Assembly (NCBI RefSeq): GCF_017565745.1
Contig: NZ_JAGDYM010000004.1
Coordinates: forward strand, 248,001 to 312,000
Reading direction: 5' to 3'
Length of the DNA: 64,000 nt
Origin: Leucobacter weissii
GTDB taxonomy: Bacteria; Actinomycetota; Actinomycetes; Actinomycetales; Microbacteriaceae
The translations under genes were made by a program, and so were the position numbers. How positions within the stretch are numbered: the first letter of the stretch is position 1; each line of letters starts with the position of its first letter. Shown piece after piece: positions 46,000 to 51,509 of this stretch. Under the pieces are notes generated by a model, which ran no database searches, was not told the origin of the DNA, and saw only the letters and a program-made list of their open reading frames with translations.

Positions 46000-46497
46000 T
46001 CAGCCGGTCGTCTCGTCGTCCCGCCAGCCGGTGGTGAGGTCCACCCAGCCGCGGGCGCCGCTGAGCCGCTCGAGATCGGGGACCGGGATCTCCACCGCCG
46101 AGGTGCTCGTGCCCGCGGCGGGGAAGACGGTGTCGAAGCGGCGCAGGGACTCGTCGAGGTAGACGTCGGCGCCCGCGGGGTTGGCGAAGGGGCAGACCCC
46201 GCCGACGGGATGCCCGGTCCGCGCCGGGACGTCGTCGCCCCGCAGCATCCGCGGCTTCCCTCCGAAGCGCCGTTTGAAGTTCCCGCTGTTCACCTTCGCG
46301 TCGCCGGCCGCGACGACGAGCAGGGCTCCCTCCGGCCTCTCGGGATCGTAGAATCCCAGCGTCTTGGCGATCCTGGCCGGTGCCGTACCGACCTTCTGCG
46401 CGGCGAGCTCGACCGTCGCGCTCGACTCCGCGAACTCGAGAATGTCGCCGGACCAGCCCCTGCCGAGCAGATGCTCCCGAACCGCTGCAGTGCCCAA
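46000..46497 (-). CDS. YbaK/EbsC-family aminoacyl-tRNA deacylase
   Basis: A 165-residue YbaK-type editing protein, which frees wrong amino acids (typically Cys or Ala) from tRNA-Pro. The family pattern is intact: QKVGTAPARIAKTLGFYD with the catalytic lysine region, VVAAGDAKVNSGNFKRRFG, and TGHPVGGVCPFANP with the GGVCPFA loop. TTG at 46497 is preferred because AAGGA lies nine bases upstream and it opens the conserved region; a frame to 46587 would add an unnatural RDRDRDR stretch encoded by a six-base repeat. Convergent with the MFS gene, divergent from ssrA. Confidence 0.85.
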   Translation of the reverse strand: MGTAAVREHLLGRGWSGDILEFAESSATVELAAQKVGTAPARIAKTLGFYDPERPEGALLVVAAGDAKVNSGNFKRRFGGKPRMLRGDDVPARTGHPVGGVCPFANPAGADVYLDESLRRFDTVFPAAGTSTSAVEIPVPDLERLSGARGWVDLTTGWRDDETTG

Positions 46498-46517
46498 AAC
46501 GCTCGTCCTTCCCCGTC

Positions 46518-46540
46518 GATCCCGATCCCGATCCCGATCC
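46518..46540. repeat. GATCCC tandem repeat
   Basis: Nearly four copies of the hexamer GATCCC upstream of the deacylase gene; length is small and possibly variable. Confidence 0.7.
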
Positions 46541-46607
46541 ACCCTATCCCCGTGCGCCGTGCGGGAGGACGGCTTGCGACGCAGCACCCCTGCTTCGCCG
46601 ACGACGA

Positions 46608-46636
46608 TTGCTCGGAATGGAGCCGCATGGTATTCT
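46608..46636 (+). promoter_or_regulatory. Promoter of ssrA (tmRNA)
   Basis: TTGCTC (46608-46613), exact 17-base spacer, TATTCT (46631-46636). Transcription from about 46643 would produce an 86-base 5' extension before mature tmRNA, removed by RNase P. A perfect hairpin GCCCGGT-TCG-ACCGGGC (46642-46658) begins right at the predicted transcript end. Confidence 0.6.
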
Positions 46637-46664
46637 GTAAGGCCCGGTTCGACCGGGCTGATAA

Positions 46665-46691
46665 CTCCACAGCGTGTGATGTGAATGCCCG
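46665..46691 (+). repeat. Left complementary arm flanking tmRNA
   Basis: CTCCACAGCGTGTGATG followed by ten more bases. It is complementary to 47181-47208 over its full length, with one position that pairs as U-G in RNA and one bulged base on the right arm. It lies within the tmRNA precursor leader, 37 bases before the mature 5' end. Confidence 0.85.
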
Positions 46692-46728
46692 CAAGGGGCG
46701 GTCGAGCGTGATCGCCGTCTTGCGCTCA

Positions 46729-47096
46729 GGGGCCGATCGGTTTCGACACGTCGATTTGAAACCGTGAGAAGCGGGTCGAGGACGCGACGTTATCTCGTTA
46801 ACGCCCGTCGCAACCCATAGGTGCCAACGCTAAGCGCACCGACTTCGCTCTCGCTGCCTAAGCACGAGACCGAGTCCGTCAGGCCGGGTCCGCCTTCGCC
46901 CCGGTTCCTGGCGTCATCCAGAGGGCTTGCTCGCGCGTCGCGTCTCAGGGCGTGCGGGGACTTCAACTGAGACTGGGCCTGTCGCTCTAGGTGTTCGTGA
47001 CAAAGAGCGGGGCCGAGTAGAACGCCTCCACGGACTACACCCGTAGAAGGCACGGAATCATCGAAGTGGACAGGGGTTCAATTCCCCTCGGCTCCA
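46729..47096 (+). ncRNA. ssrA: Transfer-messenger RNA (tmRNA)
   Basis: tmRNA rescues stalled ribosomes with SmpB. The tRNA-like part is clear: 5' GGGGCCGATCGG pairs with 3' CGGCTCC, the T arm reads GACAGGGGTTCAATTCCCC, and the discriminator A is at 47096. The CCA end is not encoded (the next bases are CGA). The tag frame starts with a GCC resume codon at 46823 and ends with TAA at 46859-46861, encoding ANAKRTDFALAA, whose ALAA end is the degradation signal. Pseudoknot sequences follow the tag. About 368 bases, normal size. smpB is not in the window. Confidence 0.96.
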
Positions 47097-47115
47097 CGAG
47101 TGATTGAGGCGAGAG

Positions 47116-47137
47116 AAGAGCGAGCTTGCTTGCTCTT
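47116..47137 (+). terminator. Hairpin after tmRNA
   Basis: AAGAGCGAGC/GCTTGCTCTT (one G-U pair) 19 bases after the mature tmRNA end. It lacks a U-tract. Two other weak structures follow: GGCGC-GAA-GCGCC at 47161-47173 and the palindrome ACCTGATCAGGT before TTTTT at 47231-47248. Any of the three could end the precursor. Confidence 0.45.
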
Positions 47138-47180
47138 CCGAGCCGATTGAAACTCGTTTCGGCGCGAAGCGCCATGAACA

Positions 47181-47208
47181 CGGGCTATTCGCATCACACG
47201 CTGTGGAG
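47181..47208 (+). repeat. Right complementary arm flanking tmRNA
   Basis: Partner of the arm at 46665-46691; 28 bases, 85 bases after the mature tmRNA 3' end. Confidence 0.85.
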
Positions 47209-47598
47209 GAATCGAGGTCTCATTCATGTAACCTGATCAGGTGTTTTTCCTATCTTCGGGCGCTTGGCGATGAGACTTCGGGACGGCGCTTCGCTTTCTT
47301 GGTCAGGACGTGAGCGGTTCCCGCTTGAGGCATCGTCTGATCAGGCCTTTTCCTGAAATTGCTGGTTCTCGTTTTCGCAAGGTGACTTAGTGCATCGGAG
47401 ACGAGAGGCTCGCAGGCATCGTTGCCGATCGAGTGCACGCCGAGTCGGGCGCTCGACGGCGGGGCTCCATAGCTGGTCTCGACCTGGCCGCTGCGGCACT
47501 GCTTCTCGCTGGAGGCGTCGTCACGGACTCACTGCTGCGGCTCGGGCTCGTCGCGTGGATCCTGGGGATACCATGTTTCCGACTGGGTGAAAGGGATC
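47209..47598. other. Gene-poor region downstream of tmRNA
   Basis: About 390 bases of lower and uneven GC content without a convincing gene. A palindrome ACCTGATCAGGT is followed by TTTTT (47231-47248), and a related CTGATCAGG plus T-rich stretch recurs near 47337-47353. A hydrophobic frame from a GTG at 47433 (GLDLAAAALLLAGGVVTDSLL) has no ribosome binding site and runs into the next gene in another frame, so it is not called. The 3' side of tmRNA is a frequent insertion site, and this may be a decayed remnant. Confidence 0.5.
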
Positions 47599-48618
47599 AT
47601 GACCGAACTGAATGGGCAGCGCGGCCGACAGCGGCCGAGTATCTACGATGTCGCACGGGTCGCCGGTGTTTCCCACATGACGGTGTCGCGAGTCCTCAAC
47701 GAACACCCCAACATCAAGCCGGCCACCCGCGAGCGAGTGATGCGGGCGATCGTCGATACCGGGTACACGCCCAGCTCGATCGCACGCGCTCTCGCCACGA
47801 AGAAAGCGATGCGGATCGGAGTGATCGTCGACTCGCCCGTGCAATTCGGCCCGAACAGCACGCTTCGGGCGCTCGAGCGCGCGGCGCGAGAGGCCGGCTA
47901 TGCGGTCAGCGCCTATTCCATCACCGACGGCGAGGGGAGGGGAATCGACACGGGAGCAATCGAACTCGTCACCGAGGGCGTGGACGCGCTCTGCGTCATC
48001 GCCCCCCGCGTATCGTCGCTCGACCTGCTGAGTGAGTTGAAGCTCAACCTGCCGCGAATACTCATCAAATCCGAACCCCATCCGGGAATGCACACCGCGG
48101 GAGTCGATCAGCATGCCGGCGCGGTGCTCGCGGTCGACCATCTCGTCAGCCTCGGTCACCGATCGATCGTGCATGTGGCGGGTCCGAGAGACTGGTACGA
48201 CGCCCGGGTGCGCGAACGGGGTTGGCGCGATGCGCTGACGGCTGCTGGCATCTCCGAGGCCCGCCACGTCGTGGGGGACTGGACTTCCGATTTCGGGTAC
48301 GAGTTCGCGCGGGAGTTCGAGGTTGGCGAGGCCACCGCGGTGTTTGCCGCCAACGATCAGATGGCGCTCGGGATCATTCACGGGTTCTCCGAGCGGGGGC
48401 TGCGCGTGCCCGAAGACATCAGTGTGGTCGGATTCGACGATCTGCCGGATGCGCGCCATTTCCTTCCTCCGCTGACCACGGTGCGCCAGGATTTCGCCGC
48501 GCTCGGAGCGCTGGCGATGCGCTCCATCGCCACCGCCATCAGCGGCACCGACACGGCGATGCACGAGAAGATCGATCCGCGGCTCAAGGTACGAGCCTCG
48601 ACTACCGCGCGTCGATGA
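47599..48618 (+). CDS. LacI-family repressor of the arabinose locus
   Basis: A 339-residue LacI/GalR regulator. Helix-turn-helix at about 14-35 (SIYDVARVAGVSHMTVSRVLNEHPNI), hinge helix YTPSSIARALATKKA, and a periplasmic-binding-like effector core (about 60-335: GVDALCVIAPRVSS, AVFAANDQMALGIIHGFSERGLRVPEDISVVGFDD). ATG at 47599 follows GAAAGGGA; a GTG at 47587 is possible. The perfect palindrome TGTTAGCGCTAACA in the promoter of the next gene is a typical LacI-family site, so this protein probably represses the arabinose transport and catabolism operon until sugar binds. Confidence 0.92.
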   Translation: MTELNGQRGRQRPSIYDVARVAGVSHMTVSRVLNEHPNIKPATRERVMRAIVDTGYTPSSIARALATKKAMRIGVIVDSPVQFGPNSTLRALERAAREAGYAVSAYSITDGEGRGIDTGAIELVTEGVDALCVIAPRVSSLDLLSELKLNLPRILIKSEPHPGMHTAGVDQHAGAVLAVDHLVSLGHRSIVHVAGPRDWYDARVRERGWRDALTAAGISEARHVVGDWTSDFGYEFAREFEVGEATAVFAANDQMALGIIHGFSERGLRVPEDISVVGFDDLPDARHFLPPLTTVRQDFAALGALAMRSIATAISGTDTAMHEKIDPRLKVRASTTARR

Positions 48619-48674
48619 AGGCGAGGCGGTCCGGTCACGGATCCGTAACGAACTCGAAATAATCGCGGGAAGGC

Positions 48675-48703
48675 TTGCGTTCACCAATGTTAGCGCTAAC
48701 AAT
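48675..48703 (+). promoter_or_regulatory. Promoter and operator of the arabinose operon
   Basis: TTGCGT (48675-48680) and AACAAT (48698-48703) with 17 bases between form a weak promoter. TGTTAGCGCTAACA (48688-48701), a perfect 14-base palindrome, fills the spacer and -10 region, so bound repressor would exclude polymerase. Confidence 0.65.
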
Positions 48704-48784
48704 GGCTGGTAAGTCTCACCCCCATCGAGTATCGGGGCGTGACTGCTCCACGACAGATCATGGAGTCTCAAGGAGGAGACGACG

Positions 48785-49789
48785 ATGGAATTCACCAAGC
48801 ACGCGCGAGGGCTTCTCGGCCTCGCAGCAGTAGGCGCTCTCTCGATCAGCATGGTCGCCTGCTCGAACAACTCGGACACCTCGGATACGGGCTCCGGCGA
48901 CGGTGATGTGGTCACCGTCGGGTATGTCGCCGTCGGCCCGGAGGGAGGCTGGCGCGACGCTCACGAGAAGGCCATCCGCGACGCATTCGATGCGGATGCG
49001 AGCTTCGACCTGAAGTACGCTCCAGCATCGAGTCCGACCGATCAGAACTCGCAGATCAATGCGTTCGCCACGTTCGTCAACGACGAGGTCGACGCGATCC
49101 TGCTGACGGCCACCGAGGCCTCCGGCTGGGAGTCTTCGCTCGAACTCGCGCAGGAGGCGGAGATCCCCGTCATTCTGCTCGACCGTGGGGTCGACGCCAG
49201 CGAGGATCTCTTCGAGACGCGCATCGCTCCGGACAACGTGGCCGTGGCCGCTCAAGTAGGCGAATGGGCGCTCACGGCCTTCCCCGACGGCGCGAACTAC
49301 TACGTGCTCGAAGGCGTGCCCGGCCTCTCCGTGGTCAATGAGCGCAACGAGGGCTTCGAGGAAGCGATCGCCGGCGCCTCGGGTTGGAAAGAGGTCGGTG
49401 CGCAGACCGCGAACTGGAGCGCCGACGAGGGCAAGTCGGTCACCGAGACCGTGCTAAGAGCCAACGACAACGACATACAGTTTATCTTCGCCCAGAACGA
49501 CGAGATGGGCATCGGCGCTGCGCAGGCCGTGAAGGACGCCGGGCTCACGCCCGGCACCGACGTGAAGATCGCCACGATCGACGGTACGACCGGCGCACTC
49601 GAAGCCCTCGCCGAGGGGGACCTGAGCTTCGTCGCCCAGTACAACCCGTTCTTCGGCGACATCGCGATCGATGCGGTCAACAAGGCGCTCGCGGGTGAGG
49701 CTCTCGAGAAGACGATCATCGTTCCCGGAGAGTCGTTCGACTCTCCCGAAGCCGGTCAGCAGGCATTGGACGACGGCCTCGGTTTCTAG
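48785..49789 (+). CDS. Sugar ABC transporter substrate-binding lipoprotein (YtfQ-like)
   Basis: A 334-residue lipoprotein: signal peptide with lipobox SMVAC (lipidated Cys26), Ser/Thr/Gly-rich spacer, and a type I sugar-binding fold. The pattern (VGYVAVGPEGGWRDAHEKAIRDAF, VDAILLTATEASGWESSLELAQEAEIPVILLDRGV, IFAQNDEMGIGAAQAVKDAG) matches the YtfQ galactofuranose-binding group. Context with araBDA suggests L-arabinose, perhaps as furanose. It is first in the operon, followed by a strong hairpin that probably raises its level above the transporter subunits. Confidence 0.92.
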   Translation: MEFTKHARGLLGLAAVGALSISMVACSNNSDTSDTGSGDGDVVTVGYVAVGPEGGWRDAHEKAIRDAFDADASFDLKYAPASSPTDQNSQINAFATFVNDEVDAILLTATEASGWESSLELAQEAEIPVILLDRGVDASEDLFETRIAPDNVAVAAQVGEWALTAFPDGANYYVLEGVPGLSVVNERNEGFEEAIAGASGWKEVGAQTANWSADEGKSVTETVLRANDNDIQFIFAQNDEMGIGAAQAVKDAGLTPGTDVKIATIDGTTGALEALAEGDLSFVAQYNPFFGDIAIDAVNKALAGEALEKTIIVPGESFDSPEAGQQALDDGLGF

Positions 49790-49815
49790 CCGAGACGTCT
49801 TCGATCGATTCCTGC

Positions 49816-49850
49816 GGTGCGGGGCCGCTGAATCCCAGCGGCCCCGCACC
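49816..49850 (+). terminator. Intra-operon hairpin after the sugar-binding protein gene
   Basis: A perfect 15-base-pair stem (49816-49830 with 49836-49850) with a five-base loop, in the 85-base gap before the ATPase gene. Likely partial terminator or 3' end protector. Confidence 0.75.
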
Positions 49851-49874
49851 CTCCCCACGAGAGGTGCATCAACG

Positions 49875-51509
49875 ATGGCCGAGCCCAGTCCCGCCGTCGA
49901 GGTCAGAGACGCCTCGATCGCCTTCCCCGGGGTGAAGGCGCTCGACGAGGTGAGCTTCCGGCTGCTGCCCGGCGAGGTTCACTCCCTGATGGGAGAGAAC
50001 GGGGCCGGCAAGTCGACGCTCATCAAGGCGCTCACGGGCGTCTACCAGATCGATTCGGGATCGATCCTAGTCGCAGGCGTCGAAAGCCGTTTCAACGGAA
50101 CAGCGGCCGCTCAGGCCGCTGGAATCTCCACCGTGTATCAAGAGGTCAACCTCTGCGGCAATCTGAGCATCGGCGAGAATGTGATGCTCGGCCGCGAAAC
50201 GCGCGGATGGGCGGGGATCAACTGGCGCCGCACGCACGCCGAGGCGCAGCGGGCGCTCGCACGGCTGGGGCTCGGCGACCTCGATCCTCGCGCTTCGCTC
50301 TCCTCGATTTCGATCGCGATGCAGCAACTCGTCGCGATCTCCCGGGCGATGGTCACCGATTCCAAGGTGCTGATCCTGGACGAGCCGACCTCGAGCCTCG
50401 ACGCCAACGAGGTCGAGGTGCTGTTCTCAGTGATCCGTCGCCTCCGCGATCAGGGCGTGGCGATCCTCTTCGTCTCGCACTTCCTCGACCAGGTCTACGA
50501 GATCAGCGATCGGATCACCGTTCTGAGAAATGGCGGCTTGGTGGGGGAATACCCGGCCAGCGAGCTGAATCGCACCGATCTGATTTCGAAGATGATCGGC
50601 AAGGACTTCGCCTCGCTCAAGGCGCTCGGCTCCAACCGGCAGACCGCGGTTCGGGACCGGAGCGGAACCCCGTTGCTGGCGGCCACCGATCTCGGTCGGA
50701 AAGGAGCGATCAACCCGACCGATCTCGAGATCCATGCCGGCGAGGTCGTCGGCTTCGCGGGTCTGCTCGGTGCGGGGCGCACGGAGCTGGCGCGACTCAT
50801 CGCGGGTGCCGACAAATCAGACACCGGCACGATCCGACTGAAGGGCAGCCGAGCGGTGATCGGTTCGCCGGTCGCCGGCCTTGCGCACGGCATCGCCTAT
50901 TCCACGGAGAACCGTCGTGAGGACGGGATCATCGGCGATCTCAGCGTTCGCGAGAACATCATGCTCGCGGTGCAGGCGCGGCGCGGCTGGATGCGGCGGG
51001 TCACGGCGAAAGAGGTCGATCAGCTCGTCACCACCTATATGGAACGATTCGGCGTGCGTCCCAACGACCCCGACCGCCCCATTCGGCTGCTTTCCGGCGG
51101 AAACCAGCAAAAGGTGCTGCTCGGCCGTTGGCTCGCCACCAACCCCGATCTGCTGCTGCTGGACGAACCGACGCGAGGCATAGATGTCGGTGCCAAGGCG
51201 GACATCCAGGAGACGGTCGCGGAACTCGCGGAGGGCGGCATGAGCGTCGTCTTCATCTCTTCCGAGGTCGAGGAGGTCGTGCGGCTCTCCGAGCGCGTCG
51301 TCATCCTCAAGGACCACGAGAAAGTGGGAGAAGTCATCAACGGTCCCGAGGTGACGGCCGAGAGCATCGTCACGATCATCGCCGCCGAGTCCGAAGAAGT
51401 CGCCGAGGATCAGGCGAATGCGCTCGCTGAGGAGGCCTCCGCGAGCATCGACACCGATGAGGCCACCCCGGATGCGGATGCTGCGGAGCGGGAGGGGGAC
51501 CAGTCGTGA
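49875..51509 (+). CDS. Sugar ABC transporter ATP-binding protein (two ABC domains, YtfR/AraG type)
   Basis: A 544-residue protein with two ABC cassettes. First: Walker [20 protein letters not shown] near 40, TVYQEVNLCGNLSIGENVMLG Q-loop, Walker B VLILDEPTSSLDANE. Second (about 265-495): degenerate P-loop FAGLLGAGRTELARLI, then LLSGGNQQKVLLGRWLATNPDLLLLDEPTRGIDVGAK. The C-terminal 40 residues are acidic and Ala/Glu-rich, unusual but without a known domain. ATG at 49875 follows a weak GAGGTG. Energises sugar uptake with the two following permeases. Confidence 0.92.
   Translation: MAEPSPAVEVRDASIAFPGVKALDEVSFRLLPGEVHSLMGENGAGKSTLIKALTGVYQIDSGSILVAGVESRFNGTAAAQAAGISTVYQEVNLCGNLSIGENVMLGRETRGWAGINWRRTHAEAQRALARLGLGDLDPRASLSSISIAMQQLVAISRAMVTDSKVLILDEPTSSLDANEVEVLFSVIRRLRDQGVAILFVSHFLDQVYEISDRITVLRNGGLVGEYPASELNRTDLISKMIGKDFASLKALGSNRQTAVRDRSGTPLLAATDLGRKGAINPTDLEIHAGEVVGFAGLLGAGRTELARLIAGADKSDTGTIRLKGSRAVIGSPVAGLAHGIAYSTENRREDGIIGDLSVRENIMLAVQARRGWMRRVTAKEVDQLVTTYMERFGVRPNDPDRPIRLLSGGNQQKVLLGRWLATNPDLLLLDEPTRGIDVGAKADIQETVAELAEGGMSVVFISSEVEEVVRLSERVVILKDHEKVGEVINGPEVTAESIVTIIAAESEEVAEDQANALAEEASASIDTDEATPDADAAEREGDQS

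Follow-up and report, generated by a model that had tools for sequence, protein, structure and literature searches.

The closest described counterpart of the structure reported here is the processing stalk of pre-16S rRNA, in which a long helix closes a stable RNA and takes up a leader box in its 5′ strand. In Escherichia coli, the passages of PMC10250234 that deal with the rRNA leader–trailer helix place boxC in its 5′ strand. NusA has been reported to bind boxC of Mycobacterium tuberculosis, and a proposal has been made that NusA presents the boxC strand for cutting by RNase III (PMC6614801). Historically, the antitermination apparatus of rRNA was regarded as reserved for rRNA, suhB and some other genes being added later, and a broad survey of BoxA, in its account of scope, states that non-coding RNAs were not considered (PMC5725501). 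The BoxA of enterobacterial suhB, as described there, is an rRNA-type Nus signal on another transcript, as is proposed here, but suhB is an mRNA and is repressed, whereas the transcript considered here is tmRNA (PMC5725501). Maturation of tmRNA is attributed to RNase P, RNase E and exonucleases, and in the accessible passages of these descriptions there is no mention of a helix that closes the molecule or of a box of the rRNA type. RNA-mapping studies of Streptomyces coelicolor and Propionibacterium acnes include tmRNA in their lists. Within the open-access literature, to which the search was confined (subscription papers fell outside it), the texts available reported no closing helix of tmRNA and no rRNA-type box on it.

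The tmRNA gene (ssrA) analysed here is that of Leucobacter weissii, a member of the Microbacteriaceae, and lies in a stretch of 64,000 nucleotides that is referred to, at its full length, as the window. ARAGORN calls the tmRNA at 46729–47097 and the Rfam covariance model RF00023 matches 46729–47099 with 163.2 bits, against a gathering score of 47. The mature ends and the tRNA-like domain of this tmRNA are ordinary, and in this respect the locus agrees with known tmRNA maturation. On the 5′ side of ssrA, an open reading frame on the minus strand (46000–46587) was judged by eye and is presumably a YbaK-like deacylase; on the 3′ side, at 47587–51509 on the plus strand, are frames that we take, again by eye, to encode a LacI-type regulator, a sugar-binding protein and an ABC ATPase. 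The features of the locus are collected in Table 1.

Table 1. Features of the ssrA locus, in coordinates of the window.
Feature	Position	Strand	Evidence
Probable ssrA −10 box, TATTCT	46631..46636	+	Direct reading; conserved context
GC hairpin CCCGGTTCGACCGGG, directly 5′ of the box, boxB-like in position	46643..46657	+	Shuffle test; folds
rRNA-leader-type box CTGATAACTCCACAGCG, boxA/boxC-like	46658..46674	+	Pattern searches in the same genome and in relatives
5′ strand of the leader–trailer helix (left arm)	46665..46691	+	Pairing, fold, conservation, covariation
Leader remainder, helix to mature 5′ end	46692..46728	+	Sequence; fold
tmRNA (ssrA)	46729..47099	+	ARAGORN; RF00023; tag ANAKRTDFALAA
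Low-copy trailer repeat, between tmRNA 3′ end and right arm	47102..47150	+	BLAST; related stretches
3′ strand of the leader–trailer helix (right arm)	47181..47208	+	Pairing, fold, conservation, covariation
Weak terminator-like palindrome ACCTGATCAGGT with T run	47231..47248	+	Direct reading; absent from terminator-scan output

Pairing between the tmRNA flanks was scored with a strict local pairing score, taking 130 nt on the 5′ side against 200 nt on the 3′ side. This score was used instead of RNAduplex, which chained whole flanks into meaningless duplexes. All script shuffles, here and below, preserve base composition only and not dinucleotides. The two arms, 27 and 28 nt long, form 26 Watson–Crick pairs and one G–U pair with one bulge, so that the full-length pairing with one U–G and one bulge claimed in the initial annotation was borne out at the same coordinates. 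When the inverted repeat is sought without gaps, the same arms are placed at 46660–46686 and 47187–47213. None of 100 flank shuffles reached the window helix (z = 14.0), which has both the top score and the top z among the 93 loci of the order that were scanned. The helix is also present in the minimum-energy folds of 46637–47260 (z = −10.1, 20 shuffles) and of 46640–47215 (z = −7.0, 100 shuffles), and the GC hairpin before the box appears in both of these folds of the presumed precursor.

The right arm begins about 5 nt past CTCCAC (right after CCA) in many relatives and at +84 in the window. When 46600–47260 was searched by BLAST against its own genome, the self match was returned together with two partial places, which belong to the trailer repeat and not to the arms. 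In the same genome, stretches related to this repeat (GATTGAGnCGAG...CGATTGA) immediately follow the 3′ end of a tRNA-Leu gene (two of them) and of a tRNA-Arg gene (L002 1542–1590 and 1481–1504; L003 1521–1577), the pieces being 78–88% identical; a search with the repeat alone refound the tRNA-Arg copy only. The repeat goes far to explain why the right arm lies at a greater distance from tmRNA here.

Conservation was assessed in two sets of loci. For the order, 98 matching genomes gave 93 loci after removal of G053, G072 and G091 (contig edge or weak match), of L097, which had no ARAGORN call, and of L095, which was miscalled. For the class, 148 genomes gave 109 new loci, 6 genomes being already in the order set and 33 being left out; 107 of the 109 loci start with GGGG, and 105 had flanks long enough. 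Two tmRNAs in these sets were unusual in other ways: L062 (G060), from a member of the Microbacteriaceae, has an exceptionally long tag (ANQNSTVPANKAAFALAA), and G093 has a second tmRNA match (C3:130901–131262, 118 bits) beside its main ssrA, possibly a mobile or decayed copy.

In the resulting 198 usable loci the helix was anchored on the leader box, and the bases following the box were paired with the trailer and with 100 trailer shuffles. Every shuffle was beaten at 41 of 51 loci of the genus Leucobacter and at 10 of 12 loci from nine other genera of the Microbacteriaceae; pairing that at most 2 of 100 shuffles reached was found at 45/51 and 11/12 loci, respectively. The stems of the other six genus loci are weak (reached by 3–11 of 100 shuffles), and one family member with a 1.4-Mb genome (L069) has the box without the stalk (41/100). 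Outside the Microbacteriaceae, 7 of 135 loci passed at the level of at most 2 of 100 shuffles, where about 4 would be expected by chance. Because three of these seven are all of the loci of family f18 (L071, L086 and L183), each with box and stalk and each with 0/100 shuffles, the sequences indicate that the stalk is probably present in this second family as well. The f18 stalks could have a second origin, or the stalk could be of wider ancestry. In other families of the order, short box-anchored stems were seen by eye or were borderline, at L079 (1/100), L044 (5/100), L027 (6/100) and L080 (7/100). As a control, RNase P RNA genes from the same groups were scored at 30 of 40 loci, and a stalk was found at none of the 30 (none beat 30 shuffles).

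Covariation was first counted on the 60 loci with the best stems, whose whole precursors were aligned by sequence alone and for which 20 pairs were named; three borderline loci from outside the family (L220, L152 and L176) were excluded. This alignment misplaces right arms, wholly in L023 and L061 and partly in some others, which counts against the helix. Over 1103 cells, 81.2% were paired, compared with 72.3% after shuffling and 21–50% when the arms were slid against each other, and 131 cells showed double changes, compared with 39.8. The covariation score was 0.316, against 0.178 shuffled and 0.04–0.12 slid, and was reached by 0 of 500 shuffles. Less decisive were the number of pairs changed on both sides (15 against 11.6 shuffled, 4/500 as high) and the number of pair types (37 against 32.2, 9/500 as high). 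Alignment columns 16–585, for example, carry CG 25 times, UA 18, UG 5 and AU 2, and columns 18–583 carry CG 29 times, UA 21 and UG 5.

Since these 60 loci had been chosen for pairing, the count was repeated on all 63 family loci, unselected and freshly aligned. Here 80.8% of cells were paired (70.1% shuffled, 20–48% slid), and double changes rose to 169, compared with a shuffled mean of 47.1, a highest value of 80 among 500 shuffles, and 33–52 in the slid controls. Kinship among the loci inflates the shuffle tests, but the slid controls retain this kinship and still fall far below the observed values. The initial annotation had taken the arms for a stalk closing the tmRNA precursor, like the stalks of rRNA, and had looked to an alignment of relatives for compensatory changes. 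By the family counts the arms are retained with such changes, and the sequence tests, which find them conserved, covarying and, by BLAST, single-copy, support that interpretation.

The left arm begins inside the leader box, and this box resembles one that stands before the rRNA genes. The initial annotation mentions neither the box nor the GC hairpin, both situated between promoter and arm. A search of the window's own genome with the pattern GANAAYTCMAYAGYG gave four exact matches, namely ssrA and three rRNA-leader copies. In one of the three, 16S rRNA follows 186 nt downstream. The other two have the same flanks and break off at contig ends, as collapsed rRNA operons do. The rRNA leader of this genome carries TTTGAGAACTCAATAGTGTG, from which the box of the window's ssrA departs. 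With one mismatch allowed, three more sites appeared, and the reversed control gave one. Two of the three (C20 and C29), situated in regions of long open frames, were counted as chance. The third, C10:3603, is in the 16S–23S spacer, 314 nt past the end of 16S rRNA; this site (G000:C10:3603–3617; L129) reads as a second rRNA-type box, GAGAACTACACAGTG, and the ssrA box GATAACTCCACAGCG shares CACAG with it.

The likeness extends to relatives. In 11 family genomes, five of which were picked for having the most rRNA-like ssrA leaders, the rRNA 19-mer matched 31 sites with at most 2 mismatches: 25 rRNA leaders (20 with 16S rRNA 192–234 nt downstream and 5 at contig ends) and 6 ssrA leaders, the sixth of which (G020) was assigned from its position beside the tmRNA. 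The reversed 19-mer had no match in the same 11 genomes. The ssrA box is therefore within 2 mismatches of the rRNA 19-mer in 6 of 11 genomes, but 5 of the six that were not picked in this way exceed that distance. In one Leucobacter (G036) the ssrA leader and the rRNA box are identical at 19 of 19 letters. The window box itself fits 14 of 15 positions of a wider pattern only, TTGANAAYTCMAYAG, which was widened after the family leaders had been seen and is controlled by 3′ flanks and shuffles. Compared with boxA of E. coli, it is missing the 5′ half.

Across the actinomycetes, the first, rRNA-derived 15-letter box TTGANAACTCAAYAG was found with at most 4 mismatches at 80/93 loci of the order and 34/107 of the class, compared with 2.2–2.3% after shuffling. 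A loose core, ANAAYTNMABA, was written after both family and class leaders had been seen, with 3′ flanks and shuffles as controls; it occurs in the 130 nt 5′ of tmRNA at 70/93 order and 58/105 class loci, or 128 of 198 in all, where shuffles predict 0.1 and 0.5, and in the tmRNA 3′ flanks at 0 of 198. The box was likewise absent 5′ of RNase P RNA (0/30 loci). No box was visible by eye at the f22 loci, whose tags we take to be mycobacterial. A hairpin of at least 5 bp ends 0–5 nt 5′ of the box at 69 of the 99 loci in which the box has at most 3 mismatches, compared with 10.2 after shuffling.

The placing of the box differs between groups. All 63 family loci have it with at most 3 mismatches of TTGANAAYTCMAYAG, at 5–71 nt from the mature 5′ end. 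Outside the family and f18 it is present at this level in 33 of 132 loci, and in 24 of these 33 it ends within 1 nt of the mature 5′ end. In the family, the helix strand and the leader remainder lie between the box and the mature end, an arrangement that suggests, from these sequences, that the box is older and that the stalk was added later.

The rRNA precursor of the same genome provides a direct comparison. Its leader stretch GTCTGGTCTTTGAGAACTCAATAGTGTGCACTTGA pairs with the 16S–23S spacer, as does its counterpart in the five relatives examined; in all six genomes (6/6) none of 20 spacer shuffles reached this pairing. Because the rRNA box pairs with the spacer and the ssrA box overlaps the arm, both boxes lie in the 5′ strand of a closing helix. 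The ssrA leader also follows the actinobacterial rrn antitermination signal (boxB–boxA–boxC, nut-like) in having a GC hairpin and then a box of the form UUGANAAYUCMAYAG, with the complete identity to an rrn copy in G036; it differs in standing before a non-ribosomal RNA gene and in having diverged in many species, that of the window included. Compared with the pre-16S stalk, the enclosed RNA here is tmRNA, the helix sequence past the box is unlike that of rRNA, and cutting by RNase III is a predicted step. As judged from these comparisons, the likeness of the putative tmRNA precursor to rRNA is a literal one that extends past the stalk.

A promoter had been claimed for this gene at 46608–46636. 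The TATTCT at its 3′ end sits within TANNCTG(T/A)AAGGCC, a context common to 9 of the 11 genus leaders listed (the window's included), which makes a −10 box here plausible, whereas a strict scan of 46500–47400 for promoters and terminators found neither. Downstream, many relatives have stronger hairpins than the window's palindrome in the same place. A GC hairpin of at least 7 bp occurs within 60 nt 3′ of the right arm at 37 of 60 stalk loci, compared with 7.2 after shuffling, a pattern that would follow from transcription running through the right arm to a terminator. A single transcript would span both arms.

We propose that the ssrA transcript is a precursor organised like pre-16S rRNA, with a leader box, a closing helix, Nus factors and RNase III, and give this reading a probability of about 0.62. 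The helix, its covariation, the box, the similarity of this box to that of rRNA and the shared placing of the two boxes are direct observations on the DNA; the mechanism that would connect them is as follows. The boxA/boxC-like leader box is presumed to be a binding signal for NusA and NusB/S10. Nus factors on the elongating polymerase would hold the ssrA leader, possibly with antitermination, while the tmRNA loops out during its synthesis. Once the trailer emerged, the held 5′ strand would meet it, and the resulting helix of ~27 bp would close the tmRNA and isolate and align its ends. RNase III would cut this helix, after which RNase P would make the mature 5′ end, removing the leader remainder, and exonucleases would trim the 3′ end to CCA. 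Genes for RNase III and NusB are present in the window's genome. tmRNA and rRNA may, on this proposal, be copied and trimmed by shared machinery.

Four other accounts were considered. High GC makes long imperfect stems common, so chance complementarity in GC-rich flanks has to be considered, and a lax scoring in which 25 of the 93 order loci lay above all of 40 shuffles was uninformative. Under strict scoring, however, 37 of the 93 beat all of 100 shuffles, and the box-anchored scoring, the covariation and the RNase P RNA control point the same way; chance pairing was rejected as exceedingly improbable. The alternative offered by the initial annotation, that a small mobile cassette captured ssrA and that the arms are its terminal inverted repeats, fared no better. 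Inverted arms do flank a gene, mobile elements are known to integrate at ssrA, and the trailer repeat has related copies behind tRNA genes. But this repeat lies inside the arms and not at them, and the search for arm copies elsewhere that the annotation had suggested left the arms single-copy at the sensitivity of BLAST. With no second copy in the BLAST search, and with a fixed place beside ssrA in nine family genera that has been kept through compensatory changes, a cassette has next to no probability and was rejected.

The box might chiefly serve RNase P or initiation in tmRNA leaders and resemble the rRNA box by convergence. The position of the box at the RNase P site, within 1 nt of the mature 5′ end, in most box-bearing loci outside the family and f18 would fit this, as would some leaders that look only ~12–17 nt long. 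Such a feature is hard to reconcile with a family box that is still conserved although it stands 5–71 nt from the mature end, with the conservation of the hairpin before it, and with an rRNA identity of up to 19/19, and we consider it improbable. The main rival is a helix that serves folding and protection only: it would clamp the ends of a long pseudoknotted RNA together during folding and shield that RNA from exonucleases, RNase III would be dispensable, and the box would be an unrelated conserved leader sequence. In its favour, pairing is retained through many sequence changes, and the E. coli rRNA leader–trailer helix, according to the relevant passages of PMC10250234, matters largely without RNase III. 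An unrelated box, on the other hand, explains neither the 19-mer identity in G036 nor the fact that all 31 matches in the 11 genomes are rRNA leaders or ssrA. We regard this account as unlikely, if worth keeping in mind.

Returning to a precursor organised like pre-16S rRNA, a wider evolutionary form of the proposal can be stated: tmRNA would be transcribed in the rRNA programme, with a Nus signal ancestral to much of the Actinomycetes, and the Microbacteriaceae, apparently together with a second family, would have gained a helix processed by RNase III. To this wider form we give even odds. The f35 loci, which from their tag sequences we take to be Streptomyces, have no convincing stalk by box-anchored pairing. 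For this reason the rnc study of Streptomyces venezuelae, where ssrA rises without RNase III but was not among the direct targets identified (PMC12096830), argues neither way here.

If the proposal is correct, tmRNA would be, as far as is known, the first other stable RNA to carry the rRNA signal and the helix in the same placing. At ~550 nt it would also be a small model for asking whether Nus factors deliver one strand of a helix to the other, which is hard to do on rRNA, and with dozens of natural variants to draw on, compensatory mutants can readily be designed. For these bacteria, the supply of the ribosome-rescue RNA would be linked to ribosome production, and the rescue RNA and the ribosome would be made and matured by one shared apparatus.
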